A stretch of 64,000 nt of DNA from Maritimibacter harenae (GTDB taxonomy: Bacteria; Pseudomonadota; Alphaproteobacteria; Rhodobacterales; Rhodobacteraceae). Below the pieces are notes generated by a model. The model did no database searches. It worked only from the letters and a program-made list of their open reading frames with translations, and was not told the DNA's origin. Positions within the stretch are counted from its first letter, which is position 1, and every line of letters starts with the position of its first letter. This document shows positions 34,279 to 47,472 of the stretch, one piece after another. The position numbers and the translations under genes are program-made. The stretch covers positions 76,641-140,640 of the forward strand of contig NZ_WTUX01000017.1 in assembly GCF_009882975.1 (NCBI RefSeq), read 5' to 3'.

Positions 34279-34608
34279 TCAGACGCGTGCCTTGGCCGCG
34301 TTCCAGATCGCCGTACAACGTGCGCCCGAGCGGCAGTAGGCGAAGACCTTGCCGTCCGTCTCGGACATCGCCTTGGCGAAGCCGTCGGCGGTGTCCGCCG
34401 GAACCTCGCGAGAGGCCATCGGCAGGTAATAGGTCCTGAGCCCCGCCGCCTTGGCGGCCGCTTCGACCGATGCCCAGTCGGGCTGCCCCGGCTCTTCGCC
34501 GTCCGGGCGATTGCACACGATGGCCTTGAACCCTTCGGCGGCGATCGTTTCGACGTCTGCGGGTTGGATCTGGGGCGAGACCCAGACCTGTTGATCGAGT
34601 TGTTGCAT
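34279..34608 (-). CDS. DUF442/TIGR01244 sulfurtransferase-like phosphatase-fold protein
   Basis: A 109-aa protein of the beta-lactamase-hydrolase-like (Blh) N-terminal family. It opens QVWVSPQIQPADVETIAAEGFKAIVCNRPDGEE and has the Cys loop YCRSGARC with C92 as the likely persulfide-carrying nucleophile. In several bacteria this domain is fused to a persulfide dioxygenase; here the two are neighbours, 24 bases apart. It probably shuttles sulfane sulfur to or from that enzyme. Confidence 0.88.
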   Translation of the reverse strand: MQQLDQQVWVSPQIQPADVETIAAEGFKAIVCNRPDGEEPGQPDWASVEAAAKAAGLRTYYLPMASREVPADTADGFAKAMSETDGKVFAYCRSGARCTAIWNAAKARV

Positions 34609-34632: not shown

Positions 34633-35532
34633 TCAGAGCTTGTTGACCGGGACCTTCAGGAACACGTCGCCCTGTTCGTCCTTCGGCGGCATCTGACCCG
34701 CTCGCATGTTGACCTGCAAGGAGGGAATGATCAGCCGCGGCATGTCGAGCTGCGCGTCACGCTCGGTGCGGAACTTGACGAAGTCCTCCTTCGTCTTGCC
34801 GCCGCCCACGTGGATGTTGTGCTCCTTCTCGTCGGCGACCGAGGTCTCCCACTGGATGTCGCGCCCGTTGGGGCCGTAGTCGTGGCACATGAAGAGCTTG
34901 GTCTCGTCCGGCAGCGACAGCACCTTCTGTATGGAGTCGTAGAGAATGCCCGCGTCGCCGCCCGGGAAGTCGGCGCGCGCCGAACCGCCGTCGGGCATGA
35001 ACAGCGTGTCGCCCACGAAGGCCGAGTCGCCGATCACATGCGTCATGCAGGCCGGCGTGTGGCCCGGCGTGTGCATCGCGAAGGCGGTCATTCCGCCGAT
35101 CTGGTACGTGTCGCCTTCCTTGAAGAGGCGGTCGAACTGCGACCCGTCGCGCTGGAACTCGGTGCCTTCGTTGAAGACCTTGCCGAAGGTGTCCTGCACC
35201 ACGGTGATGTTCTCGCCGATGCCGATCTTGCCGCCCAGCTTCTGCTGGATGTAGGGCGCGGCCGAGAGGTGGTCGGCGTGCACGTGCGTCTCGATGAGCC
35301 ACTCGACCTTCAGGTCGTTGTCCTGGACGTACTGGATGATCTCGTCGGCGTTGTCATAGGTGATGCGCCCGGCCGCGTAGTCGATGTCCATCACGCTGTC
35401 GACGATGGCACAGGACTGCGAATTCGGATCCTTCACGACGTAGGAGATCGTGTTGGTCGCCGGGTCGAAAAACGCTTTCACGTCCGGTTTGACCGAGGTG
35501 TCCACGGGATAGCTCTGGGTCATGTCCTTCAT
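34633..35532 (-). CDS. MBL-fold persulfide-dioxygenase-like hydrolase
   Basis: A 299-aa metallo-beta-lactamase-fold protein with an intact metal motif H83-V-H-A-D-H88 (THVHADHLSAAPYIQ), followed by AMHTPGHTPACMTHVIGDSAFVGDTLFMPDGGSARADFPGGDA, the ETHE1/Blh pattern. The family oxidises glutathione or other persulfides to sulfite with Fe(II). ATG 35532 has GGAGGG upstream. It is first in an operon with DUF442 and sulP, and an ATTC-N8-GAAT box lies at 35670. Confidence 0.9.
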   Translation of the reverse strand: MKDMTQSYPVDTSVKPDVKAFFDPATNTISYVVKDPNSQSCAIVDSVMDIDYAAGRITYDNADEIIQYVQDNDLKVEWLIETHVHADHLSAAPYIQQKLGGKIGIGENITVVQDTFGKVFNEGTEFQRDGSQFDRLFKEGDTYQIGGMTAFAMHTPGHTPACMTHVIGDSAFVGDTLFMPDGGSARADFPGGDAGILYDSIQKVLSLPDETKLFMCHDYGPNGRDIQWETSVADEKEHNIHVGGGKTKEDFVKFRTERDAQLDMPRLIIPSLQVNMRAGQMPPKDEQGDVFLKVPVNKL

Positions 35533-35669
35533 AACTCCCTCCAGATTGACCGGGTCGGCGGCCGTGCCCCGCCCGGTGGGGTCAGTTTGCCCTGAATTCG
35601 CGCCGCGTGCACGTATTCAAGCCGTTGAAGGTGAAATAGGCGTCCTGTGTGGCTCCGTAAACCCCTCAT

Positions 35670-35685
35670 ATTCGTTTTTTTGAAT
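35670..35685. promoter_or_regulatory. ATTC-N8-GAAT box, persulfide dioxygenase operon
   Basis: ATTC-GTTTTTTT-GAAT, 138 bases upstream of the MBL gene. A perfect match to the SqrR/BigR box. A weaker relative, ATTC-N8-GAAG, lies at 35615. The 260-base spacer 35533-35792 otherwise holds only the terminator at 35742. Confidence 0.75.
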
Positions 35686-35737
35686 TTAATTTGTCGCGCC
35701 TCCGTGCTGTCGCCCGAATGTCACGGGTGGCGGATAC

Positions 35738-35768
35738 GAAAAAGGCCGCACCAGGGCGGTGCGGCCTT
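35738..35768 (-). terminator. intrinsic terminator after the YeeE pair
   Basis: AAGGCCGCACC (35742-35752) and GGTGCGGCCTT (35758-35768) form a perfect 11-bp stem with a five-base loop; on the minus strand it ends in a T-run (TTTTTC). It lies 25 bases past the stop at 35793. Confidence 0.88.
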
Positions 35769-35792
35769 CCGTCTTGTCGTTGTGTGGCCGGC

Positions 35793-36236
35793 TCAGGCGG
35801 CCTGCATCGCGTCGCGCCGGGCGGCGGTGATCTTCATCGCGCCCTTGGCGATCAGGATGCCGCCGATGAGCGCCGCGGTGAAGATCAGGACGTCGGGGTT
35901 CAGCGTCGAGAGCACCGGGATCGAGGCGCCCGGGCAGAAGCCCGCGATGCCCCAACCGACCCCGAAGACCGCCGAGCCGCCGATGAGGCGCGCGTCGAGC
36001 TTGCGGTTGGTGGGGACGTTGAACGCCGAGCCGAACACCGGGCGCCCGCGCTTGAAGACCAGCCAGTAACCCGGCGCGCTCACCAGGAGCGCCCCACCCA
36101 TCACGAAGGCCAGGGACGGGTCCCAGACGCCCGCGACGTCGAAGAAGTTCTGCACCTTCGCCGGGTTGGCCATGCCGCCGATGGACACGCCGAGGCCGAA
36201 GAGAAGGCCGGAGATGTAGACGAACAGCTTTTCCAT
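35793..36236 (-). CDS. YeeE/YedE-family half protein (DUF6691)
   Basis: A 147-aa membrane protein with four predicted helices, the partner half of a sulfur-compound transporter. The conserved block GWGIAGFCPGASIPVLS contains the family's Cys in the pore helix. It starts 4 bases after the gene at 36241 and pairs with it; such half-size pairs (PmpA/PmpB type) move sulfane sulfur or thiosulfate into the cell. Confidence 0.88.
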   Translation of the reverse strand: MEKLFVYISGLLFGLGVSIGGMANPAKVQNFFDVAGVWDPSLAFVMGGALLVSAPGYWLVFKRGRPVFGSAFNVPTNRKLDARLIGGSAVFGVGWGIAGFCPGASIPVLSTLNPDVLIFTAALIGGILIAKGAMKITAARRDAMQAA

Positions 36237-36240
36237 TGGG

Positions 36241-36681
36241 TCAGCCTCCGATCACGTGACGCAGGATGTAGACGGTGATGCCGGCGGTCAGCATGAAGGT
36301 GAGCGTCGCGGTGATCGAGCGCGGCGAGAGGCGCGAAATCCCGCAGACGCCGTGGCCCGAGGTGCAGCCCGACCCGTAGGTCACGCCGATGCCCACGATC
36401 AGCCCGCCGATGATCATCATCCAGCGGTTCACCGGCACCTCGATCGTCGGGAAGCCGCCCGTGAACAGAAGGATCGCGATCGGACCGCTCAGCATCCCGG
36501 CGATCATCACCGCGCGCCAGCCCCAGTCGGAGGAGGACGAGGGCGTCATGAAGCCCGCGAGAATCCCGGTCGCGCCCAGCACGTTGCCGCGCATGGCCAT
36601 GAGGAGCACCGTCCCCAGCCCGATCAACAGCCCCCCGATCAATGAGGCCCAGGGGGTAAAGGCCGTTTCTATCACTTCCAT
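36241..36681 (-). CDS. YeeE/YedE-family half protein with CTSGHGVCG motif
   Basis: A 146-aa membrane protein with four predicted helices. The signature [15 protein letters not shown] (C106 and C113) is the sulfur-transfer motif of YeeE/YedE transporters. It leads a two-gene operon, with a near-match ATTC-N8-GATT box 74 bases upstream. Likely substrate: thiosulfate or a sulfane-sulfur species. Confidence 0.9.
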
Positions 36682-36754
36682 GGTCGCCTCACTCGGTCAT
36701 GGTTATCCTTGGGTATCGGACATAAACGGTCCGTCCCCGCCTCACAAGCGATAC

Positions 36755-36770
36755 ATTCAAATAAATGATT
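36755..36770. promoter_or_regulatory. near-match ATTC-N8-GATT box, YeeE pair
   Basis: ATTC-AAATAAAT-GATT differs from the SqrR/BigR box at one base. It lies 74 bases upstream of the first YeeE gene inside an AT-rich patch. Confidence 0.5.
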
Positions 36771-36898
36771 ATATTTTCGTGAGAAGCGCGCGTTGGGAAC
36801 AGTTTCCCACGCCGCGAACCAGAGTCACGACGTTGTCACGCGAAATTCCGGAAATTCCGGGGCGGCCAGAACATTGTTCTCCCGCCCCGGTTGTGGGA

Positions 36899-37348
36899 TC
36901 AGTTGCCCAACGCGTCCTGCACGATCGTGTCGAGCAGCGCCTGGACCTCCTGCATCGGGCCGTCGGGATAATTGCGGTAACCGATCATCACCTCGCCATC
37001 GCGTTCGGCCACGAAGACGCCGTAGGGGCAATGGGCGATGTTCATCGGATCGGCTTCCATCACCTTGCGGCTGACCACGGCCGAGCAGAACAGGAACACG
37101 TCCGCCGCCTCGAAGAGCTTCACGTCGGAGCCCACGTCCTCGCCTGTACGGGCGAGCATGTCGCCCACGTGCGAGGTGTAATCGACCACGAGCCCCTGCC
37201 CCACGATGGCATTCTCGACCGCGAAGGTCGCATCGTCGAAGCTGCCGTCGAAGGTATAGGTGGTGGCCTGGTCGCCGCCGTGACTGGCCGCCATCGCGGC
37301 ACTGGCCGCGAACACGGCCGTGACGGCCGAAATGAGCATCCGTTTCAT
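36899..37348 (-). CDS. DUF302 protein, exported
   Basis: A 149-aa protein with a signal peptide (MKRMLISAVTAVFAASAAMAA) and a DUF302 domain: VVDYTSHVGDMLARTGEDVG, FLFCSAVVSRKVMEADPMNIAHCPYGVFVAE. Two cysteines, C88 and C107, could bind a metal or sulfur. GGGAGG precedes ATG 37348. It is a single-gene unit between soxD and the YeeE pair, with a perfect ATTC-N8-GAAT box 49 bases upstream. DUF302 function is unknown; context points to periplasmic sulfur oxidation. Confidence 0.87.
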   Translation of the reverse strand: MKRMLISAVTAVFAASAAMAASHGGDQATTYTFDGSFDDATFAVENAIVGQGLVVDYTSHVGDMLARTGEDVGSDVKLFEAADVFLFCSAVVSRKVMEADPMNIAHCPYGVFVAERDGEVMIGYRNYPDGPMQEVQALLDTIVQDALGN

Positions 37349-37368
37349 GAAATCCTCCCGGTCTGGGC

Positions 37369-37388
37369 GGACCGATTCGACACGGTCC
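37369..37388. promoter_or_regulatory. second inverted repeat upstream of the DUF302 gene
   Basis: GGACCG (37369-37374) and CGGTCC (37383-37388) flank eight bases, between the ATTC box and the gene. It could be an operator or a leader hairpin; nothing decides. Confidence 0.3.
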
Positions 37389-37396
37389 GAAATGAC

Positions 37397-37412
37397 ATTC
37401 GATAATCCGAAT
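37397..37412. promoter_or_regulatory. ATTC-N8-GAAT box, DUF302 gene
   Basis: ATTC-GATAATCC-GAAT, a perfect match to the persulfide-repressor box, 49 bases upstream of the DUF302 start. Confidence 0.75.
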
Positions 37413-37530
37413 ATAACAGAGCCGCGAGACGCAATCCAGTCTGGCGACTGCGGCATAACCCCGCCCCCGAAATGCGACCGGCGCCGCACGGAAAACCGCA
37501 CGACGCCGGGGCACAGGGAGGACCGATCCC

Positions 37531-38583
37531 TTATTCGAAGGTCGAGAGATAGGCGATGACAGCCTTGATCTCTTCCTCGTCGCGCAGGCCGACGAAGGAC
37601 ATCTTGGTCCCGCGCATGTAATCGCGCGGCTTGGCGAGGAAGGCGCCCAGTTCTTCCGGCGTCCAGACCAACCCGTCCGCGGCCGCGTCCTGCATGGCGT
37701 TCGAGTAACGGAAGCCCTCGACCGCGCCGGCCGGGTGGCCGACGATGCCGTTGAGGGCCGGACCGGTGCCGTTGCGCGCGCCTTCGCCGACCTTGTGGCA
37801 GGCCTTGCACTTGCGGAAGACGCCCTCGCCTTCCTCGACCAGTGCCGGATCCGGCTCGGCCATCGCGACCTCGGTCTCTTCGGCCGGGGCCTCGGCGGCC
37901 GTGTCTTCGGCCGCGGCTTCCTCGGACGCTGCGGCCTCTTCGGCGGCGGTTTCCTCCGGCGTCACGTCCAGGATCGTGGCACGCATCGTGATCTCGACCG
38001 GCGCGTCCTTGCAGTTCTCCATGCAAGGCTCGTCCTTCCAGAAATGCGCTTCGGCCTCTTCGCGGTTGTCCACGATGAACCCGTCGGCATTCGGCATCTC
38101 GATCTCCGAGAAGGTCTCGTTCGAGAGCACTTCGTCGTATTCCATGATGCTGTTGGAATAGAGGATGTAGGCCGTGAGCGCGTAGACGTCGTCGTCGGAC
38201 ATGGTCTGCGCGGCGCCGAAGGGCATCGAGCGGCGCACGTAGTCGTAGACCGTCGACAGGTAGGGCCAGTAGGAGCCCACCGTCTTCACCGGGTCCATGC
38301 GGTCGAGCGTTCCGAAACCGCCCGCCAGCACCGGCCAGCGCCCCACGCCCTCGGCGAATTCGCCGTGGCAGGCCGCGCAGCTCTCGGAGAACAGCATCTC
38401 GCCGTCTTCCGCCGTGCCGGAGCCTTCGGGCAGCCCCGTGCCATCGGGCGCGATGTCCAGGTTCCAGGCCGCGACCTCTTCCGGCAGCGCTTCGCGCCCC
38501 AGTCCGAAGGGCCCGGCCAGCGCGGTGCCCGCGATCAGGGTGGCAACCGCCGTTCCCGCGATAAGCTTAGGAAACTTCGACAT
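37531..38583 (-). CDS. soxD: sulfur dehydrogenase cytochrome subunit SoxD
   Basis: A 350-aa diheme c-type cytochrome, partner of SoxC in the Sox(CD)2 sulfane dehydrogenase that oxidises the SoxY-bound sulfane sulfur and passes six electrons on. Signal peptide about 1-23. Heme motifs CAACH (69-73) and CKACH (259-263). The domains are joined by an Ala/Glu-rich linker at 208-244. The start overlaps soxC by 17 bases. Confidence 0.95.
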   Translation of the reverse strand: MSKFPKLIAGTAVATLIAGTALAGPFGLGREALPEEVAAWNLDIAPDGTGLPEGSGTAEDGEMLFSESCAACHGEFAEGVGRWPVLAGGFGTLDRMDPVKTVGSYWPYLSTVYDYVRRSMPFGAAQTMSDDDVYALTAYILYSNSIMEYDEVLSNETFSEIEMPNADGFIVDNREEAEAHFWKDEPCMENCKDAPVEITMRATILDVTPEETAAEEAAASEEAAAEDTAAEAPAEETEVAMAEPDPALVEEGEGVFRKCKACHKVGEGARNGTGPALNGIVGHPAGAVEGFRYSNAMQDAAADGLVWTPEELGAFLAKPRDYMRGTKMSFVGLRDEEEIKAVIAYLSTFE

Positions 38584-39853
38584 TTTCCGCCTCCCCGTTC
38601 TCTTTCACATGCCAAGTCTGGATGCAGTTGTTGTGGTAGATCGAATTCTCGCCCCGCACCTCGCGCAGCGCGTCCTTCGTGGGCTGGACGTAGCCCGTTT
38701 CGTCCGTCGCGCGCGACTGGATCAGCATCTCGGAGCCGTCCCAGTCGATGTCGAGGTAGAAGCGGGTGAGCGCCTTGGAATCGCCCGCCTTGCCCAGGCG
38801 CGCGGGCTGCCACGTCATGCCGCCATCGAGCGACACGTCGACCCGCGTGATGGCGCCCCGGCCCGACCAGGCCATGCCGGTGATGACCAGCGGGCCGGCC
38901 CCGTGGGTGATCGGCATCTGCGGCGAGGGCGAGGTGATGACGGATTTCGCATCCATCACCCAGGTCCACTTGCGCGAGATGCCATCGGCCAGCGTGTCGG
39001 TGTATTTCGAGGTTTCCTCGCGGCTTTCGATCGGTTGGTCGGTGACCTCGATGCGGCGCAGCCACTTCACCCACATGTTGCCTTCCCAGCCCGGCACGAC
39101 GAGCCGCACGGGATAGCCATGCTCCTTGCGAAGCGCTTCGCCGTTGGCCTTGAAGGCCACGAGCACGTCGTCGAGCGCCTTCTCCATCGGGATCGAACGG
39201 CCGTTCGAGGACGCGTCCGCCCCCTCGACGTAGATCCACTTGTCCGAAAGGTCGCCCGCGGTGTCGAGCCCGGCCTCTTCCAGCAGCGTGCGCAGCGGCA
39301 CACCGGAATATTCCATGTTGTGGATCATGCCGTGCGTGAACTGCGCCCCGTTGAGCTGCGCGCCCGCCCATTCCATGCCGGTGTTGGCGGCACATTCGAG
39401 GAAATAGGTGTGGATCTCGCGCGGGAAGCGCTCGAGGTCGGCATAGGTGAAGACCAGCGGCGTATCGACCAGCCCGTTGATCATCAGCCGGTAGTCTTCC
39501 TTGCGCAGCTCGATCGCGCCCGAATGGTGACGCTCGAAGGCGCAGCCCTGCGGGGTGATCGTGCCGTCGAGCGCGTGGATCGGCGTGAAATTGATCGAGC
39601 TGATCGTGTCGGCGGTAAGCCAGTCCACGTTGCGCCGGACCACGTCGTCCTCGTACTTGATCGGCAGACCATACGGCGTGGCGTCCACGCCTTCGCCCAG
39701 GCCGCTGGCCCAGGGTTGCACTTCGGTGATCAGCGGGTCGGGCGCGGTCTGCGCGCGCGCGGCCGTCGCGGCCAGAAGCGCGGCGCCGGATGCGGCCGTT
39801 CCCGTCAGGAACCCGCGCCGCGACGGGCCTTTTCGTTCAGGAGTATCGTCCAC
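38567..39853 (-). CDS. soxC: sulfur dehydrogenase molybdenum subunit SoxC
   Basis: A 428-aa molybdopterin protein of the sulfite-oxidase fold, catalytic partner of SoxD. A Tat signal SRRGFLTG precedes a hydrophobic stretch ending AARAQ. The cofactor Cys is in HTYFLECAANTGMEW, and the C-terminal dimerisation domain is present (VDVSLDGGMTWQPA). GTG 39853 has GGGAG six bases upstream; ATG 39871 is an alternative adding six residues but lies only 7 bases from the operator and lacks a good ribosome site. Confidence 0.94.
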   Translation of the reverse strand: MDDTPERKGPSRRGFLTGTAASGAALLAATAARAQTAPDPLITEVQPWASGLGEGVDATPYGLPIKYEDDVVRRNVDWLTADTISSINFTPIHALDGTITPQGCAFERHHSGAIELRKEDYRLMINGLVDTPLVFTYADLERFPREIHTYFLECAANTGMEWAGAQLNGAQFTHGMIHNMEYSGVPLRTLLEEAGLDTAGDLSDKWIYVEGADASSNGRSIPMEKALDDVLVAFKANGEALRKEHGYPVRLVVPGWEGNMWVKWLRRIEVTDQPIESREETSKYTDTLADGISRKWTWVMDAKSVITSPSPQMPITHGAGPLVITGMAWSGRGAITRVDVSLDGGMTWQPARLGKAGDSKALTRFYLDIDWDGSEMLIQSRATDETGYVQPTKDALREVRGENSIYHNNCIQTWHVKENGEAENVEVS

Positions 39854-39877
39854 TTTGTTCTCCCTAGTCATATTAGC

Positions 39878-39897
39878 TCATTCACCTATGTGAATGA
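39878..39897. promoter_or_regulatory. perfect palindrome with ATTC-N8-GAAT box, soxCD
   Basis: TCATTCAC-CTAT-GTGAATGA is a perfect 20-bp palindrome with the box ATTC-N8-GAAT at 39880-39895. It lies between the soxB terminator and soxC, so soxCD can be controlled separately. Confidence 0.82.
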
Positions 39898-39910
39898 AAT
39901 GGTTAACAAA

Positions 39911-39939
39911 AAAGCCGTCCGGACCCACGCCCGGACGGC
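39911..39939 (-). terminator. intrinsic terminator after soxB
   Basis: GCCGTCCGG (39914-39922) and CCGGACGGC (39931-39939) form a perfect 9-bp stem; on the minus strand TTTTTTG follows. It begins 9 bases past the soxB stop and separates soxXYZAB from soxCD. Confidence 0.88.
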
Positions 39940-39947
39940 GTTCAGGA

Positions 39948-41645
39948 TCAGCCCTGGATCACCTCGACCGAGGTATTCGGATCGAGCGTGACATTGCCTT
40001 GTTTCCTGATGTGGCTCTCCACCACGTCCCAGATGGGCGGTCCCTCGGTGCCCTCGTTCACGCTGGCCCAACCGGCGACCGTGTAGGTCTTGGCCGGGTC
40101 GATCGCCTCGCCGGTCTTGAGCAGCGTCATCTCGGTGATGCGGCTGCCCTGCGGCTTGGTGATGTCGATCCGGTAGCCCATGCCCCCGATGCGCACCATG
40201 TCGCCGCCCTGCTGGTAGTAGGGATCGGGGTTGAACAGGTTGTCGGCCACGTCCTCGAGGATCGTGTGTATGAATTCGCCCGTCATTTCCGTGCGGTAGG
40301 CGTTCGGGTACGTCATCGAGGTGACGTTCCAGATATCCTCGCGCGTGATGTTGTCGCCGGGCACCAGGCTCGGCCCCCAGCGCACGCCGGGCGACATGGC
40401 GATGTCGGCCTCGCGCTCCGAGATCAAGGCGTCGCAGATCAGGTCGTCCCAGGACCCATTGAAGTTGCCGCGACGATAGAGCTCGGTGTCGGTCGTGCCG
40501 ATCACCTCGGCCATCTCCTCGGCATAGGGCGCGCGCTGCTCGTCGATCAGCGCAGTCATCTCGGCGTCCGGGGCGATCACGTCCGAGAAGATCGGGATCA
40601 GCTTGTGCCGGAAGCCCATCATCTGGCCGTTGCGCACGTCGAGGTCGACGCGGCTGACGAACTTGCCGTTGCTGCCGCTGGCCACGATGATCGTGTCGCC
40701 GACCACCACCGGCTCGGGCAGCGCGTCGTGGGTGTGGCCCGACAGGATCACGTCGAGCCCGGTCACGCGGCTCGCCATCTTCTTGTCGACGTCGAAGCCG
40801 TTGTGGCTGAGGCAGACGACCAGCTCGGCCCCCTGCGCGCGGACCTCGTCGACCATCGCCTGCATGTTCTCGTCGCGGATGCCGAAGCTGTAGTCGGGGA
40901 ACATCCAGCCGGGGTTGGCGATCGGCATGTAGGGGAACGCCTGGCCGATAACGGCGATCTTCACGCCGCCGCGTTCGAAGAACTTGTAGGGCTCGAAATG
41001 CTCGGCCGGCTCGTCCCACATGGCGTCGAAGATGTTCTGGCCGAGGGCGGCGAAGGGCAGCCCGTCGACGATCTCGCGCACGCGTTCCTGGCCCAGCGTG
41101 AATTCCCAGTGGAAGGTCATCGCGTCGGGCTTCAGCCCGTTCATCACGTTGACCATGTCCTGCCCCTCGGTGTGGTAGCAGGTGTAGGAGCCGTGCCAGG
41201 TGTCCCCGCCGTCGAGCAGCAGCGCATCGGGCCGGGCCGCGCGGATCGCGTTGACCACGGTCGCGACGCGGTCGAGCCCGCCGACCTTGCCGTATTCCTT
41301 CGCGAGCGCCGAAAAGTCGTTGTAGGTCAGCGCATAGGCACTGGGCGACCCGTCGACGATGCCGTAGCGCGCCTTGAACTCGGCCCCGGTGATGTGGGGC
41401 ACCTGCCCCTTGTTCTCGCCGACGCCCAGGTTGATCTCCGGCTCGCGGAAATAGATCGGCTTCATCTGGGCATGGATGTCGGTGACGTGGATGAGCGAGA
41501 CGTTTCCGAACGTCTCGAACTCGAGCAGCTGGTCCTGCGTCAGCGTCTGCTGCGCGGCCAGCCTGGCCCAGTTACCGAAGCCGGAGGCCCCCAGCATTGC
41601 GCTGGCGGCCATGCCGACTTGCAGGAAATCACGGCGAGAAATCAT
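39948..41645 (-). CDS. soxB: thiosulfohydrolase SoxB
   Basis: A 565-aa periplasmic dimanganese enzyme that hydrolyses the terminal sulfone of SoxY-bound thiosulfate to sulfate. Tat signal MISRRDFLQVGMAASAML. Metal-site motifs: HVTDIHAQMKPIYFREPE, LLDGGDTWHGS and SGHTHD of the 5'-nucleotidase fold. ATG 41645 has GGAG upstream; the longer frame to 41723 runs through the promoter box. About 95 bases separate it from soxA. Confidence 0.96.
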   Translation of the reverse strand: MISRRDFLQVGMAASAMLGASGFGNWARLAAQQTLTQDQLLEFETFGNVSLIHVTDIHAQMKPIYFREPEINLGVGENKGQVPHITGAEFKARYGIVDGSPSAYALTYNDFSALAKEYGKVGGLDRVATVVNAIRAARPDALLLDGGDTWHGSYTCYHTEGQDMVNVMNGLKPDAMTFHWEFTLGQERVREIVDGLPFAALGQNIFDAMWDEPAEHFEPYKFFERGGVKIAVIGQAFPYMPIANPGWMFPDYSFGIRDENMQAMVDEVRAQGAELVVCLSHNGFDVDKKMASRVTGLDVILSGHTHDALPEPVVVGDTIIVASGSNGKFVSRVDLDVRNGQMMGFRHKLIPIFSDVIAPDAEMTALIDEQRAPYAEEMAEVIGTTDTELYRRGNFNGSWDDLICDALISEREADIAMSPGVRWGPSLVPGDNITREDIWNVTSMTYPNAYRTEMTGEFIHTILEDVADNLFNPDPYYQQGGDMVRIGGMGYRIDITKPQGSRITEMTLLKTGEAIDPAKTYTVAGWASVNEGTEGPPIWDVVESHIRKQGNVTLDPNTSVEVIQG

Positions 41646-41672
41646 GCGGGTCTCCGTATTCTTCCGTCTCTC

Positions 41673-41688
41673 ATTCCAAAAACGGAAT
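41673..41688. promoter_or_regulatory. ATTC-N8-GAAT box, soxB
   Basis: ATTC-CAAAAACG-GAAT lies 28 bases upstream of soxB, in the soxA-soxB gap, which suggests an internal promoter for soxB. Confidence 0.75.
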
Positions 41689-41740
41689 ATGTATAAGTAA
41701 GAAAACCCCGCGCGGCAAGACACCGCGCGGGGCGATTGGT

Positions 41741-42589
41741 TCAGTTCCTTACGGCGGGACCTTCGACCGAAAGCCCGTTGCCGCGCGACGCCACGTACAT
41801 CTCGAGCGCCACGAACTCCGGCGAACCGGGGCTGTAGGTCTCGGCGCGGGTGTCACGCACGCAGCCCTTGAAGCGGCTGTGGACGCCGTTGAGCTTGGTG
41901 TTCTTCAGGCGATACGTCGGGAAACCGTTGATCTGCCCCTGGGACAGGTGGTCGGCCCGGATCATGTTGCCGTAGTTTTCCTCGTGACAGGACGCGCAGG
42001 ACAGGTCGAGCTGCCCGGTGCGGGCGTAGTAGAGCTCCTTGCCCTGCTCCCAGGTCGATTGACCGGGACCGTCGATGGCCACGTCGACCGGCATGCCACG
42101 GCTGACCGACGAAAGCAGAGCCTCCATCGCCAGCGCGTCGGCCGCGTCGTATTTCCACGGCTCGGCGCCCATGCGGTTCTCGCGGCAGTCGTTCATCTGC
42201 ATCTGCATGGTGCGGACTTCGCCGGCGTCCTCGTTCCACTTCGGATAGACCGGCTTCACGCCCGCCATGTCCTCGGGTTCACCGTGACAATCGGCGCACG
42301 ACTTGTCTTCGGAGCCGACCGGGGTCGACCACTTCTCGCGCGCGTCTTCGACGGCCAGCATCGCCGGGTTGTCGAAGTCGTCCATCTCCATCATCTGCGT
42401 GGTGGAGTCGCGGAAACGCCAGCCCGACATGATCGTGCTCATACCGTCCATATGCGCGGGCGCATCCGTCTTGGTGACGATCTCGATCTCGCCGTTGATG
42501 ACGAGCTCTGCGTCCTCGTCGGCCAGGGCCGCCCCCGCGCCGAACGCGAGAGCAGCTGCCGCGATACTTTGAAGCAGTTTCGCTTTCAT
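41741..42589 (-). CDS. soxA: SoxAX cytochrome subunit SoxA
   Basis: A 282-aa diheme c-type cytochrome that, with SoxX, oxidatively links thiosulfate to the SoxY cysteine. Signal peptide about 1-23. Heme motifs CADCH (98-102) and CASCH (198-202); ligand cysteines C135 and C243 (FKGCVRDTRAE), the latter the active-site Cys-persulfide ligand. ATG 42589 has GGGAGGAG upstream; the longer frame is not conserved. Confidence 0.95.
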   Translation of the reverse strand: MKAKLLQSIAAAALAFGAGAALADEDAELVINGEIEIVTKTDAPAHMDGMSTIMSGWRFRDSTTQMMEMDDFDNPAMLAVEDAREKWSTPVGSEDKSCADCHGEPEDMAGVKPVYPKWNEDAGEVRTMQMQMNDCRENRMGAEPWKYDAADALAMEALLSSVSRGMPVDVAIDGPGQSTWEQGKELYYARTGQLDLSCASCHEENYGNMIRADHLSQGQINGFPTYRLKNTKLNGVHSRFKGCVRDTRAETYSPGSPEFVALEMYVASRGNGLSVEGPAVRN

Positions 42590-42615
42590 TCTGTCTCCTC
42601 CCTGCTGGGCGTGGA

Positions 42616-42945
42616 TCAAGCGACCTCGATCGCCTTGGCTTCTTCGTAGACCGAGCCGTCGTCGTCGTACCAGGTGAACTTGAATTCACCCGAGGCGTCG
42701 ACCTTGGCTTCGAACTCGAAATACGGGTTCGTCGAAATCGCCGGTTCCAGCGTGACGTCGATGATCATGTTGTCGTTCAGTTCGCAGGTGAAGCGATTGA
42801 TGATCGACCGCGGGATCGTGTTCCCGTCCGAGTCCTTGCGCTGGCCCGATTCCATCGGGTGGCTGATGAGCGTCTTGATCGTCACGACCTCGCCCGCAGA
42901 CGCGGAAGAGGGAGACTTGACGCGGGGTTTAACACCAGATGCCAT
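42616..42945 (-). CDS. soxZ: sulfur carrier subunit SoxZ
   Basis: A 109-aa immunoglobulin-fold protein that pairs with SoxY. It has no signal peptide, because it travels with SoxY through Tat. Typical core: GEVVTIKTLISHPMESGQRKDSDG and SIINRFTCEL. AAGGAG precedes the ATG. It follows soxY by 23 bases. Confidence 0.95.
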   Translation of the reverse strand: MASGVKPRVKSPSSASAGEVVTIKTLISHPMESGQRKDSDGNTIPRSIINRFTCELNDNMIIDVTLEPAISTNPYFEFEAKVDASGEFKFTWYDDDGSVYEEAKAIEVA

Positions 42946-42968
42946 TGGTAATACTCCTTGTTCCGCTG

Positions 42969-43385
42969 TTAGCCGCCGCAGCCGCCGATGGTGACCTTCA
43001 CGGTCTTGGCGGTCTGGATGTAGCTGCCATCTTCCATCTTGGCGACGGCGATGACGTCCTGCGTGCCGGCGAGCCGGATCCGGGTCGAGGCGTATTGGCT
43101 GCCCGCGGCCGGTCCGAAGTTGAAGGTGACCACGTTGGGCGTCGGGTTGCCCGCGGCGAACACGCTGATGGCGGCCGCGCCCGGCGCCGTCACCGAGATC
43201 GGAACGGTGTTGCCGTTCTCCGCGATCTCCGGCGCGTCGAGGGTGATGTCGCCCTCGCCCGCTTCGGCCCCGCCGGTGAAGGCCGCGATCGCGTCCTCTG
43301 CGGCGGCGAAGGCGCGCATGGGCAGCATGGCGACAGCGGTCGCGCCAAGCCCCATGGCCAATGCATCACGTCGATTGAGTTTCAT
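42969..43385 (-). CDS. soxY: sulfur carrier subunit SoxY
   Basis: A 138-aa protein that carries sulfur intermediates on its C-terminal cysteine. Tat signal NRRDALAMGLGATAVAMLPMRAFA. The C-terminus is GGCGG with C136, the swinging-arm carrier residue. AGGAG precedes the ATG. Between soxX and soxZ. Confidence 0.95.
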   Translation of the reverse strand: MKLNRRDALAMGLGATAVAMLPMRAFAAAEDAIAAFTGGAEAGEGDITLDAPEIAENGNTVPISVTAPGAAAISVFAAGNPTPNVVTFNFGPAAGSQYASTRIRLAGTQDVIAVAKMEDGSYIQTAKTVKVTIGGCGG

Positions 43386-43417
43386 TGTTATCTCCTGTTT
43401 CTCTGGTCCTGCCCGCA

Positions 43418-43900
43418 TCACTCGTCGTAGGTGAGCGTTTTCAGGTAGGCGACCACGTCCTCGACCTCCTGGGCCGTGAGGAGCGGTTCGACGGGCTTGT
43501 CTTCCGGGTGGGCCTTGCCGGTGAACCCGTCGCCCAGTCGGTTGAAACCCTCGGTCTTGTAGAAGGCCGGCATCACCGTGCCTTCGAAGGCCATCTTGGC
43601 GTTGACCACGAGCCCGCGAAGCTCGGCTTCGCTCCAGCGCTCGCCGACACCGTCGAGCGGCGGGCCGACCTCGCCGTGGAACGGCACGTCTGCGTAATCC
43701 TCGGCCGCATGGCACGAAACGCAGTTGCCCATGGACTTCGTGGTCATGACCTTGCGGCCTTCTTCGGGATTGCCCGGCGTTCCGGTAAGGGACTGCTCGA
43801 CGGCGTAGCCGTCGAAGGTCACCTCGCTCGGGGGCACGACCTCGGCCATTGCGACCGAACCCGTGAGACACGCCGTGGCTAGCGCGATCATCCGCTTCAT
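43418..43900 (-). CDS. soxX: SoxAX cytochrome subunit SoxX
   Basis: A 160-aa monoheme c-type cytochrome. Signal peptide about 1-19, heme motif CVSCH (60-64), likely Met ligand in GTVMPAFY (M110). ATG 43900 has GGGAGG upstream. First gene of soxXYZA with a palindromic box 65 bases upstream. Confidence 0.94.
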   Translation of the reverse strand: MKRMIALATACLTGSVAMAEVVPPSEVTFDGYAVEQSLTGTPGNPEEGRKVMTTKSMGNCVSCHAAEDYADVPFHGEVGPPLDGVGERWSEAELRGLVVNAKMAFEGTVMPAFYKTEGFNRLGDGFTGKAHPEDKPVEPLLTAQEVEDVVAYLKTLTYDE

Positions 43901-43962
43901 GATTCCTCCCATCACATTTTGTGAATACGACTGTATGCCTGCGGGGCGCGAATGCCAATCAT

Positions 43963-43982
43963 AAATTCGCCTTCTTGAATTT
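43963..43982. promoter_or_regulatory. ATTC-N8-GAAT box, soxX (w-x region)
   Basis: AAATTC-GCCTTCTT-GAATTT: six-base perfect arms around eight bases, with the box at 43965-43980. It lies in the soxW-soxX spacer, a region where SoxR of other sulfur oxidisers is reported to bind. Confidence 0.82.
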
Positions 43983-44033
43983 TTTGCCGGCTAACACGCT
44001 GACCGCAGGCGCTATTTTGTTTTTCCGCCCGTT

Positions 44034-44621
44034 TCAATCCTCGATCGCGTCGCCGGCCGCCTGTTCCTCGTTGAACCGGCGCGCATGGTACTTCTGGAAG
44101 TTTTCATCGCCCTTGTAGCCCTCTTCCAGCACCCAATCGAGAAGGTGGTTGGTGGTCGACTTGCCGAAGGCGCCCGGCATCGTGACCACGGCCGCCTCGC
44201 GCGCCGTGGCGCCCTCCGGCACCTCGTCCGCGGGCGGGAAGAACATCATCGTGGGCGTGAACATGACGCCCCATTTCATGGCCATGTCACGCTCCGACAG
44301 GGATTCCCCGTCGAAATCGGTGACCTCCACGTCGCCGAAGAGGTTGAGCTGCACGACGAAGAAGTCCTCGTTCAGCGTCTCGGCGATGGCGGGCGTGGGA
44401 AACACCTCCTCGTGCATCTTGGTGCAGTAGATGCAGCCGCGCTGTTCCCAGATCACCATGAAGCGCTTGCCCTCGGCCTCGGCCTCGGCAAGGTCGTCGC
44501 CCATGTCCTTGAACGTGTCGTGCATCCAATCGGTCTTGTGCAGCCCGTCGTCGCCCAGGGTCGCCGCGTGCAGCGGCAGGGCGAACGCGACCGTGGCCGC
44601 CAGGGTGGCAAGGATACGCAT
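44034..44621 (-). CDS. soxW: periplasmic thioredoxin SoxW
   Basis: A 195-aa thioredoxin-fold protein with signal peptide about 1-20 and redox motif C63-I-Y-C66 (RGCIYCTKMH). It receives electrons from SoxV to keep Sox proteins reduced in the periplasm. 15 bases behind soxV. Confidence 0.93.
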   Translation of the reverse strand: MRILATLAATVAFALPLHAATLGDDGLHKTDWMHDTFKDMGDDLAEAEAEGKRFMVIWEQRGCIYCTKMHEEVFPTPAIAETLNEDFFVVQLNLFGDVEVTDFDGESLSERDMAMKWGVMFTPTMMFFPPADEVPEGATAREAAVVTMPGAFGKSTTNHLLDWVLEEGYKGDENFQKYHARRFNEEQAAGDAIED

Positions 44622-44635
44622 GTGAATTCCTCCTC

Positions 44636-45376
44636 TCAGCCCAGCCGGGAAAAGCCGGGGAACGTTTCGATCATCCAGTTCGAGATCGCGTTGATCGATC
44701 CCGTGGCGATGAGAACCGCGAATATGATCAGCATAGCCCCGAGAACCTTCTCGACATAGGGCATGTATTTGCGGTTGCGTGCCATGAAGCCGAGAAACGG
44801 CTTGGCGAAGACCGCCGCGACCACGAAGGGCGCGGTCATGCCGAGCCCGAAGGTGATCAGCAGGCTGCCACCCTGCACGAGCGTGTCCTTCATCGCGGCA
44901 ATCATCAGGATCGAGGCCAGCACCGGCCCCACGCAGGCCGTCCAGCCGAAGCCGAAGGCAAGCCCCATGACGTAGGCGCCCAGGATCGTGGACGGATCCA
45001 TGTCCGACTGCACCCGCGCCTCGCGCATCAGGAAGGGGATCCGGATCACGTGCAGGAAATGCAGCCCGAAGACGAAGATCACGGCGGCCGCGACCCAGCT
45101 CAGCTCCTGCTTCCATTGCGCGAAAGCCTGGCCGGCCGCCGTGGCCCCGAGCCCGAGGAGCCCGAAGATCGTGGTCACACCGAGCGCGAAGAAGAACGCG
45201 GAGATGACCAGCCGCCGCTGCGCGCCGGGCGCGATTTCGCCGTCTCCCTGAAGCTGGGTCATTGAAATCCCGGCCATGTAACTCAGGTAGAAGGGCACCA
45301 TCGGCAGAATGCAGGGTGTGAAGAAGGCGATGAGGCCCGCCAGGGCCGCCCCGCCGTATGAAATATCGCCGAACAT
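44636..45376 (-). CDS. soxV: CcdA-like membrane thiol transporter SoxV
   Basis: A 246-aa DsbD/CcdA-family membrane protein with six predicted helices. Redox cysteines are in AFFTPCILPMVPFYLSYM (C22) and FGWTACVGPVLASIL. It carries reducing power from cytoplasmic thioredoxin to SoxW. ATG 45376 has GGAGG upstream. Divergent from soxS. Confidence 0.93.
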   Translation of the reverse strand: MFGDISYGGAALAGLIAFFTPCILPMVPFYLSYMAGISMTQLQGDGEIAPGAQRRLVISAFFFALGVTTIFGLLGLGATAAGQAFAQWKQELSWVAAAVIFVFGLHFLHVIRIPFLMREARVQSDMDPSTILGAYVMGLAFGFGWTACVGPVLASILMIAAMKDTLVQGGSLLITFGLGMTAPFVVAAVFAKPFLGFMARNRKYMPYVEKVLGAMLIIFAVLIATGSINAISNWMIETFPGFSRLG

Positions 45377-45424
45377 AAAACCTCCGATCGCGACCCATGC
45401 ATCTTGCGCGGATCGCATCGACGA

Positions 45425-45440
45425 ATTATGTTTTTTGAAA
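45425..45440. promoter_or_regulatory. degenerate box between soxV and soxS
   Basis: ATTA-TGTTTTTT-GAAA matches the ATTC-N8-GAAT box at three of four bases in each arm and is flanked by ACGA/TCGT arms (45421-45444). It lies in the soxS-soxV spacer, the second region bound by SoxR elsewhere. Confidence 0.5.
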
Positions 45441-45463
45441 TCGTCTGGTCAACGGGATTTTGC

Positions 45464-45847
45464 ATGCGACTGACCGCTATCATTGCCGCGGCCCTTCTCT
45501 GGATGGCCGCCCTGCCCGCTTTTGCGGCCGAACTCGTCATGGTCGAGCAGCCCGGCTGTGTCTATTGCCGGCAGTGGAACCAAGAGATCGCGGAGACGTA
45601 TCCGAAAACGCCCGAGGGGCGCGCGGCGCCGCTCGTCCGCGTTCAGCTGACGGATGCGCAGGACGGCGATATCGACTTCGAAACGGCGCGGCCGGTGAAC
45701 TTCACGCCGACCTTCATCCTGGTCGAGGACGGCACCGAACTGGCCCGGATCGAAGGCTACCCGGGCGAAGACTTCTTCTGGGGCCTGCTGACGATGATGC
45801 TGAAGGCCCAGGTCGGTTTCGATCCGGCAACACACGCTGAAGGTTGA
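45464..45847 (+). CDS. soxS: periplasmic thioredoxin SoxS
   Basis: A 127-aa thioredoxin-fold protein with signal peptide about 1-22 (MRLTAIIAAALLWMAALPAFAA) and redox motif C32-V-Y-C35. SoxS reactivates SoxYZ by reduction. ATG 45464 puts the signal peptide at the N-terminus; ATG 45428 would add twelve residues and overlap the operator-like box. Confidence 0.9.
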   Translation: MRLTAIIAAALLWMAALPAFAAELVMVEQPGCVYCRQWNQEIAETYPKTPEGRAAPLVRVQLTDAQDGDIDFETARPVNFTPTFILVEDGTELARIEGYPGEDFFWGLLTMMLKAQVGFDPATHAEG

Positions 45848-45886
45848 AGACTGAGACGAACCTTAATATTTGCATGGGGTCCCACG

Positions 45887-46291
45887 ATGGACGTACACTC
45901 GAACGAACCGAAGGTTGCACAAGGCCCGAACATGGCGCTCCCCGTCATCACCGAGGACATGTCCGAAGAAGACATGGACAAGATGGTTGCTTCCGCCTGC
46001 GACGCTTCCACGTTCCTCAAGGCGATCAGCCATGAAGGGCGGCTGATGATCCTGTGCCACCTGGTCACCGGCGAAAAATCTGTCACCGAACTCGAAGAAC
46101 TGCTCTCGGCCCGCCAGGCGGCGGTGAGCCAGCAGTTGGCGCGCCTGCGCCTCGAGGGGCTGGTGACGCCGCGCCGCGAAGGCAAGGCGATCTACTACTC
46201 CCTGGCCGACGACCGACCCAAGCGGGTGCTCGAGGTCATCTACGACATGTTCTGTTCGACCGACCAGGGCCAGGCCAAGGCCGCGGAGTGA
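45887..46291 (+). CDS. soxR: ArsR-family repressor SoxR (SqrR/BigR-like persulfide sensor)
   Basis: A 134-aa winged-helix ArsR-family regulator. The DNA-reading helix is SVTELEELLSARQAAVSQQLARLRLEGLV (about 65-93). It has three cysteines: C38 (SACDAS), C57 (MILCHL) and C123 (DMFCST). C38 and C123 lie where SqrR and BigR carry the dithiol pair that forms a polysulfide bridge; metal-binding CxC sites are absent. Likely represses sox genes at the ATTC-N8-GAAT boxes until persulfide appears. It sits between soxS and soxT. Confidence 0.92.
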   Translation: MDVHSNEPKVAQGPNMALPVITEDMSEEDMDKMVASACDASTFLKAISHEGRLMILCHLVTGEKSVTELEELLSARQAAVSQQLARLRLEGLVTPRREGKAIYYSLADDRPKRVLEVIYDMFCSTDQGQAKAAE

Positions 46292-46339
46292 CGCTGTCGC
46301 GCCGGGTGCACGACCAAAACCCTTGCACCGTATAAGCAC

Positions 46340-46355
46340 ATTCGATTGACTGAAT
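46340..46355. promoter_or_regulatory. ATTC-N8-GAAT box, soxT
   Basis: ATTC-GATTGACT-GAAT, extended to CATTC/GAATG arms, 56 bases upstream of soxT and 48 after soxR. Confidence 0.75.
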
Positions 46356-46410
46356 GAGCCGGGACCGGGCCGCCCCGGCACGGGAGGATCGTGGCCCGCG
46401 GAGGTTTTTC

Positions 46411-47472
46411 ATGCTCGAGATGTTGGGGGAATCCAACGCCGCGGCCCTCGTCGGCCTGATCGGCGGCACGATGCTGGGCCTCGCGGCGCGACTGGGGCGG
46501 TTCTGCACCCTCGGCGCGATCGAGGACATGCTCTACGCAGGGTCCTCTCTCAGGCTTCGGATGTGGGGCATCGCCGTCGGCGTCGCCGTCATCGGCAGCT
46601 TCGCCCTGATGCAGGCCGGGATGCTGGACGCGCCGCAGGCGGTCTATTTCCAGGCCGGCTGGGTGCCCTGGGCCTCGGTGATCGGCGGCCTCGTCTTCGG
46701 TTACGGCATGGCGCTTGCGGGCAATTGCGGCTTCGGGGCGCTCGCGCGCCTGGGCGGCGGCGACCTGCGCTCCTTCGTGATCGTGCTCGTCATGGGGCTC
46801 GCCGCCTATGTCGCGATCTCGGGCCCGCTGGCAAGCCTGCGCTTGATGCTCTTCCCCGTCCGCCCCCTCGACCCCGGCGAAACCGTCCCGGGGCTCGCCC
46901 ATCTCGCCGAACGGCTCACCGGGCTGCCTGCCCCGGTGATCGGTATGAGCGTGGGCGTCGTGATCCTCGGCGCCATGTTCACGTCGGCCGAGATGCGGCG
47001 CGACGCGCGCAAGATCTTCTGGTCCGTGGTCGCGGGTCTCGCGATCGTCGTGGGCTGGGCAGGCACGAACTGGATCGCCCAGACGGGGTTCGCCCCGATC
47101 CCGGTCGAGAGCCACACCTATTCCGCACCGCTGGGCGACTCGATCCTCTACCTGATGACGGCGTCCGGCAATTCGCTCAATTTCGGCGTCGGCTCGGTCG
47201 TCGGCGTGCTCGCGGGCGCCTTCATCGGCTCGGCCCTGAAGGGCCATTTCCGGTGGGAGGCCTGCGAGGATCCGCGCGAGCTCAAGCGCCAGATCGGCGG
47301 GGCGGTCCTCATGGGGTTCGGCGCGGTGGTGGCCTTCGGCTGTTCCATCGGCCAGGGCCTGTCGGCCTTCTCGCTTCTCTACCACGGCGCGCCGGTCACG
47401 CTGGCGGCGATCATGGCGGGCGCGGCCTTCGGCCTGCGCCAGCTCATATCGGGTTTCGCGCCGGCGGAATGA
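46411..47472 (+). CDS. soxT: YeeE/YedE-family sulfur transporter SoxT
   Basis: A 353-aa full-length YeeE/TsuA-type membrane protein with nine or ten predicted helices in two repeats. Conserved Cys segments: LGRFCTLGAIEDML, ALAGNCGFGALARLGGG and VAFGCSIGQGLSAFS. The E. coli relative imports thiosulfate. ATG 46411 has GGAGG upstream. In soxSRT operons it is thought to bring sulfur compounds into the cytoplasm for sensing. Confidence 0.9.
   Translation: MLEMLGESNAAALVGLIGGTMLGLAARLGRFCTLGAIEDMLYAGSSLRLRMWGIAVGVAVIGSFALMQAGMLDAPQAVYFQAGWVPWASVIGGLVFGYGMALAGNCGFGALARLGGGDLRSFVIVLVMGLAAYVAISGPLASLRLMLFPVRPLDPGETVPGLAHLAERLTGLPAPVIGMSVGVVILGAMFTSAEMRRDARKIFWSVVAGLAIVVGWAGTNWIAQTGFAPIPVESHTYSAPLGDSILYLMTASGNSLNFGVGSVVGVLAGAFIGSALKGHFRWEACEDPRELKRQIGGAVLMGFGAVVAFGCSIGQGLSAFSLLYHGAPVTLAAIMAGAAFGLRQLISGFAPAE

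Follow-up and report, generated by a model that had tools for sequence, protein, structure and literature searches.

Described SoxR and SqrR regulons

SoxR of Paracoccus and Pseudaminobacter is said to act at two sites, one between soxS and soxV and one between soxW and soxX. By comparison, six perfect and two near copies of a single palindrome, ATTC-N8-GAAT (hereafter the box), are found in the sulfur island considered here, which lies in a 64,000-nucleotide stretch of Maritimibacter harenae (contig NZ_WTUX01000017.1, positions 76,641 to 140,640 of the forward strand; hereafter the window). Judged from the sequence, the boxes are very probably operators of the ArsR-family repressor SoxR that is encoded in the same island, and would make up an expanded, multi-operator form of the SoxR/SqrR persulfide regulon. 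The regulator and the box are known; what is new is the layout, with a box before nearly every unit, two further targets in trans, and a soxCD box whose presence varies from relative to relative. No description of such a multi-box layout was found in literature searches, which left out most subscription papers.

ATTC-N8-GAAT is the operator deduced for SqrR of Rhodobacter capsulatus (PMC9774250), in agreement with the original prediction, which had also assigned the sequence to BigR; a term search of one BigR paper (PMC5823870) found no operator sequence. The R. capsulatus regulon has the same operator, a dithiol ArsR sensor, and trxC as a target (PMC9774250, PMC10044876). However, the targets named there are sqr, rhodanese and trxC, whereas here core sox units and two persulfide dioxygenases are boxed. 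SoxR of Hyphomicrobium denitrificans is likewise an ArsR-family protein encoded in the sox region and released by polysulfide, which prevents its DNA binding, the effect of thiosulfate being much milder; in gel shifts, it bound four of five intergenic probes (PMC10451225). H. denitrificans differs in its truncated Sox system with sHdr and in its second repressor, sHdrR, and no ATTC box is named in the texts searched. As the boxes do here, the SoxR-binding regions of Paracoccus and Pseudaminobacter lie inside the sox clusters (PMC10451225). Regulators of the SqrR/SoxR type have already been tied in print to sox, pdo and YeeE-type transporters (PMC12423496, PMC9774250).

Clustering of the box in the sulfur island

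The six perfect boxes of the window all fall within 35670-46355, a span of 10.7 kilobases (kb), at the positions originally predicted (Table 1). Shuffled sequence gives a mean of 0.62 and a largest count of 3, with six or more in 0/100 shuffles. In the whole genome (4,246,927 bases, 70 contigs) there are 23 perfect boxes, compared with 2 for a reversed-pattern control, and the island holds six of the 23 where 0.043 would be expected from the rate elsewhere (Poisson P about 8e-12). The genomic total is itself ordinary, as the seven other genomes of the genus carry 21-32 perfect boxes each. The outstanding feature is the clustering of the boxes, not their genome-wide number.

All six perfect boxes are intergenic once likely start codons are applied, and each precedes a different gene unit, as had been claimed. 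This involves corrected starts for soxB, which most likely begins at 41645 and not at 41723, and for soxT, most likely 46411 rather than 46354. The soxB box lies upstream of soxB because of the former choice. For soxC, GTG 39853, with AGGGAG ahead of it, is the most likely start.

Across the whole window, boxes with at most one mismatch are at chance level (14 compared with 12.85 expected). Near-matches in the window were therefore counted only if conserved in relatives. Two had been put forward in the original prediction: the site before the YeeE pair has one mismatch, is conserved in the genus and stands, while the site in the divergent soxV-soxS gap has two mismatches and is weak. The remaining single-mismatch sites of the island, at 37211 and 39310, are intragenic.

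Conservation within the genus

The genus search covered eight genomes including this one; six of the others have a full-length match to this SoxB, making seven loci with the window, in which boxes or profile matches were counted. The dioxygenase box is perfect in 7/7 members, and in the alignment 8/8 half-site columns are invariant compared with 47/299 columns outside the 16-base box. The soxX box is also present in 7/7 (six perfect). The YeeE-pair site occurs in 7/7 but is nowhere perfect, reading AATC-N8-GAAT on the gene strand in six members and ACTC-N8-GAAT in one, and 7/8 of its half-site columns are invariant compared with 20/236 elsewhere. The DUF302 and soxB boxes are each found in 6/7 members (four perfect and two single-mismatch for soxB), and the soxC and soxT boxes in 3/7 each.

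Conservation in a wider set of sox loci

To these was added a wider set of SoxB loci of Rhodobacterales type, namely the 80 best matches retained from a list of capped length. Perfect boxes were counted within 250 base pairs (bp) upstream of each gene, and a profile was trained on the soxX sites of the wider set (99% null threshold 7.3). Denominators differ, since genes with incomplete upstream sequence were dropped and, for profile counts, also those with N. Gene starts in the relatives were extrapolated from alignments, so that gap lengths are approximate.

The 80 loci contain 124 perfect boxes. With the half-site permuted at like composition (48 versions, ATTC being one of them), the median count is 8 and the next-highest 48. 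Spacing 8 accounts for the 124, and any other spacing between 4 and 12 yields 2-19. Additionally, long gaps elsewhere in the loci are rarely boxed (soxZ-soxA 0/25, soxC-soxD 2/42, counted over the 80 loci, the six other genus loci and the window). The permutation, spacing and long-gap controls already contradict an explanation by base composition, in which the A+T-rich promoter gaps of a genome with 67% G+C would simply yield chance palindromes. Such an explanation could draw on the chance level of single-mismatch boxes in the window, and on the fact that, of the genome's 17 further boxes, just two are near recognised sulfur-related genes, but it has almost no chance of being correct.

Perfect boxes are found upstream of soxX in 58/72 cases, soxB in 21/78, soxC in 8/75, soxV and soxS in 1/73 each, DUF302 in 1/38, the dioxygenase in 1/4 and the first YeeE gene in 1/2, and upstream of none of the other nine genes. 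Profile matches are more frequent for soxX (71/72, a rate that is partly by construction), soxB (58/79), soxV (49/73) and soxS (47/73), followed by soxC (11/75), the dioxygenase (2/4), the first YeeE gene (1/2), DUF302 (1/38), soxT (2/95), soxD (2/78) and soxR (1/74). There are none in the 80 loci upstream of soxA, soxZ, soxY, soxW, the second YeeE gene or the sulfurtransferase gene. Boxes with other flanks, such as that of soxB in the window (score 5.0), are undercalled, since the training sites of the profile were those of soxX. From the per-gene profile counts, the sites that occur widely are those of soxX, soxB and soxV/soxS. The DUF302 and soxT sites are mostly features of this genus, as are, as far as the few cases tell, those of the YeeE pair and the dioxygenase. 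The earlier claim that the box ties accessory genes to core Sox draws its support mainly from this genus, DUF302 having a single profile match among 38 more distant loci.

The rarity of boxes outside the genus at DUF302, soxT and soxC could also be taken to mean that only soxX and soxB, with soxV/soxS in relatives, are true SoxR sites, and that the other copies arose by chance or are non-functional. This is very improbable given the recurrence of the same three boxes within the genus, the way in which soxC boxes track the soxB-soxC gap (see below), and the roughly 0.04 perfect sites expected in the island by chance.

The regulator and its targets outside the island

The SoxR of the island is the only close SoxR/SqrR-type protein found in its own genome. 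Its best match among solved structures is chain 13ct/6o8l-o (E 3.6e-37, 65/100 aligned residues identical), which is presumably R. capsulatus SqrR. Both sensing cysteines are present in the local SoxR, and among loci with a matched SoxR (87 loci given) Cys42 is found in 80/80 and Cys108 in 79/79. An SqrR-like ArsR protein, two cysteines and ATTC-N8-GAAT at the target promoters thus occur together, as in the SoxR/SqrR dithiol persulfide repressors. By homology, SoxR would bind the boxes and be released by persulfide or polysulfide, a release that is known for homologs.

Two boxes outside the island adjoin recognised sulfur-related genes. A second persulfide dioxygenase (C51:673829-674695, L141) has a perfect box 44 bp upstream (C51:674740), which is perfect in 4/4 genus orthologs, its own included. 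The other four genus genomes lack such an ortholog, and the more remote homolog that G004 carries is unboxed. The trxC gene (C59:652902-653222, L171) has a perfect box 17 bp upstream (C59:653222), and of the eight trxC boxes in the genus, this one included, five are perfect and three have a single mismatch. The wider trxC test took in 60 other genomes of the family, 26 of them with a trxC match at the cut-off used: a perfect box is present in 9/26 (null 0.4%), and a site with at most one mismatch in 14/26 (null 7%). In R. capsulatus, loss of SqrR raises trxC 21.6-fold and sulfide raises it 22.4-fold, and the polysulfide bridge in SqrR is itself reduced by TrxC (PMC10044876). By our own reading of its letters, a primer printed in the same paper spans a perfect box adjoining the trxC start codon. 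This regulation, together with the box, gives the best external evidence that genes carrying the box are targets of this type of regulator.

It is unlikely, though less so than the two alternatives above, that the boxes are real operators of which some are bound by another ArsR-type or an unrelated regulator, with SoxR acting on soxX only. Two further ArsR-like proteins are encoded in the genome (on C62 and C59); however, both are weak matches to SoxR (38% and 31% identity) and lack Cys42. The flanks of the soxX box do fit the profile better than those of other boxes (30.5 compared with 5.0-27.5, soxX sites having served to train the profile), and among the nine genomes in which the trxC box is perfect, one is without a SoxR-like match. 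Against this, trxC is repressed by SqrR in R. capsulatus, where the box is seen as well (PMC10044876).

A proposed persulfide circuit

If the boxes are operators of SoxR, reduced SoxR would occupy the palindromes when no sulfur substrate is present, each unit being repressed through its own box. During thiosulfate oxidation some sulfane sulfur would enter the cytoplasm, possibly via SoxT, and bridge Cys42 and Cys108, taking SoxR off the DNA; sulfur import through a SoxT for signalling has been proposed for Hyphomicrobium (PMC12423496). The units would then be transcribed together: soxXYZA, soxB, soxCD, soxT, DUF302, the YeeE pair and the persulfide dioxygenase. The second dioxygenase and TrxC, which carry the same box, would drain persulfide and re-reduce SoxR, closing the loop. 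Most likely, a single persulfide-sensing repressor thus switches the whole boxed set on together, and the signal may be persulfide rather than thiosulfate itself, as originally suggested. The earlier interpretation as an SqrR-type persulfide regulon is supported, because the box is clustered, is specific in its spacing and recurs ahead of the same units in relatives, and because the local SoxR keeps both cysteines.

Several observations weigh against a SoxR regulon of this extent. Perfect boxes are missing altogether from 12/80 related loci. Two sites of the window score below the threshold of 7.3, namely the soxV-soxS site (6.3) and, with its soxX-derived profile, the soxB box (5.0), and the soxV/soxS gap reaches a profile score of at least 9 in one of the seven genus members, the window being among the six below. 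The chance level of single-mismatch sites across the window belongs here too. No site with at most one mismatch is found at 12/26 of the family trxC genes, and the genome with a perfect trxC box and no SoxR-like match (G026) is 91% complete. Persulfide dioxygenases of R. capsulatus are described as being without SqrR regulation (PMC9995734), and the dioxygenase as a target can therefore not be carried over by homology.

The result is a concrete regulon hypothesis for thiosulfate oxidation in Rhodobacterales, which takes in accessory genes, namely DUF302, of unknown role, and the YeeE pair, whose role is unproven. One operator would join sulfur oxidation (Sox), sulfur removal (the two dioxygenases) and the reductase TrxC, by which the related sensor SqrR is reset.

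The soxCD box and splitting of the sox operon

The soxCD step decides whether or not sulfane sulfur bound to SoxYZ is fully oxidised. A profile match is present in the soxB-soxC gap in 14/82 loci of the wider set, the genus and the window, and is confined to long gaps, with 14/24 where the gap is at least 60 bp and 0/58 where it is shorter. The association is partly built in, because a box hardly fits into a short gap. A quick SoxB tree, in which 80/87 rows have both soxC labels and 14 rows are boxed, requires no fewer than 11 changes of the soxC box, a count that tree error or threshold noise would inflate. With box and gap as paired traits on the tree, the median sign-test p is 0.016 (range 0.008-0.125). 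The SoxR box might, as a speculation that is more probably wrong than right, be a movable gate by which the sox operon is split time and again. In that case soxCD would have acquired or lost a persulfide-released promoter of its own no fewer than 11 times among the loci studied, and cytoplasmic persulfide would tune complete versus incomplete thiosulfate oxidation. The scattered soxCD operator makes the regulation of complete versus incomplete oxidation comparable between close relatives.

Terminator-like hairpins are found in the soxA-soxB interval of 50/85 loci. The idea that a terminator always accompanies a box was rejected, as the soxA-soxB hairpin is present in 38/61 boxed and 12/24 unboxed loci, and the soxB-soxC hairpin in 2/14 boxed and 1/68 unboxed loci.

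Features of the island and further observations

Table 1. Sites, genes and hairpins of the sulfur island, in window coordinates.
Feature	Position	Strand	Description
Sulfurtransferase-like gene (BLH_phosphatase)	34279-34608	-	Pfam
Persulfide dioxygenase	34633-35532	-	Pfam; named from its resemblance inside the metallo-beta-lactamase superfamily
SoxR/SqrR box	35670-35685	-	Perfect; 137 bp before ATG of persulfide dioxygenase, with sulfurtransferase downstream
YeeE pair, DUF6691	35793-36236	-	Pfam
YeeE pair, Sulf_transp	36241-36681	-	Pfam
Box variant AATC-N8-GAAT	36755-36770	-	One mismatch; 73 bp upstream of YeeE pair; profile score 27.5
DUF302 gene	36899-37348	-	Pfam PF03625, 25.1 bits (cut-off 23)
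Box	37397-37412	-	Perfect; 48 bp upstream of DUF302 gene
soxCD	39853-37531	-	Open reading frames; Pfam for soxC and soxD; tblastn and gene order in 80 loci
Box	39880-39895	-	Perfect; 26 bp before GTG 39853 of soxCD
Terminator-like hairpin	39914-39939	-	11-pair stem and T tail; after soxB, before soxC box
soxB	41645-39948	-	Open reading frame; tblastn and gene order in 80 loci
Box	41673-41688	-	Perfect; 27 bp before ATG 41645 of soxB; profile score 5.0
Terminator-like hairpin	41705-41733	-	13-pair stem and T tail; after soxA, before soxB box
soxXYZA	43900-41741	-	Open reading frames; tblastn and gene order in 80 loci
Box	43965-43980	-	Perfect; 64 bp upstream of soxXYZA; profile score 30.5
soxW	44034-44621	-	Open reading frame, Pfam
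soxV	44636-45376	-	Open reading frame
Degenerate site, divergent soxV-soxS gap	45425-45440	.	Two mismatches; profile score 6.3
soxS	45464-45847	+	Open reading frame, Pfam
soxR	45932-46291	+	ArsR-family repressor with Cys42 and Cys108
Box	46340-46355	+	Perfect; soxR-soxT gap, 55 bp before soxT
soxT	46411-47472	+	Open reading frame, Pfam

The degenerate soxV-soxS site overlaps a predicted soxV promoter, TTGACC-16-CATAAT, the position expected of an operator; the promoter scan of the window gave 3 predictions compared with 2.0 in shuffles. The terminator scan as a whole shows no excess (7 compared with 8.0 in shuffles). A -10-like element, TAnnnT, starts 3 bases before the box at DUF302 in 6/7 cases, the dioxygenase in 5/6, soxB in 7/26, soxX in 14/63 and soxC in 0/11; it carries little weight, because these counts are without a null and part of the element comes from the box. 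A second degenerate box-like site with two mismatches lies at 43911-43926, between the start of soxX and its box, and may form a double operator.

The other 15 boxes outside the island were placed with a simple gene call: nine lie within reading frames that it called, not all of them certain, and the other six are intergenic, next to genes with no recognised sulfur link. Contig C41 (3.8 kb) has two boxes in A+T-rich gaps and was set aside, as no sulfur gene was recognised nearby. A cupredoxin-like/beta-propeller gene region is present in two near-identical copies with the same box in each (C59:713836 and C70:12332). The cupredoxin-like gene was rejected as a regulon member, the box being found in 0/5 orthologous upstream regions of other genus members. 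One genome, G021, contains 248 perfect ATTC-N8-GAAT sequences (control 7) with varied spacers and has no SoxR-like match at E 1e-8; the excess is perhaps a composition effect.

The soxD-DUF302 interval is shorter than 200 bp in the window and in L138. In the five other genus members (L135, L136, L137, L139 and L140) it is about 2.2 kb, and in four of these it contains a match to a second soxD-like cytochrome.

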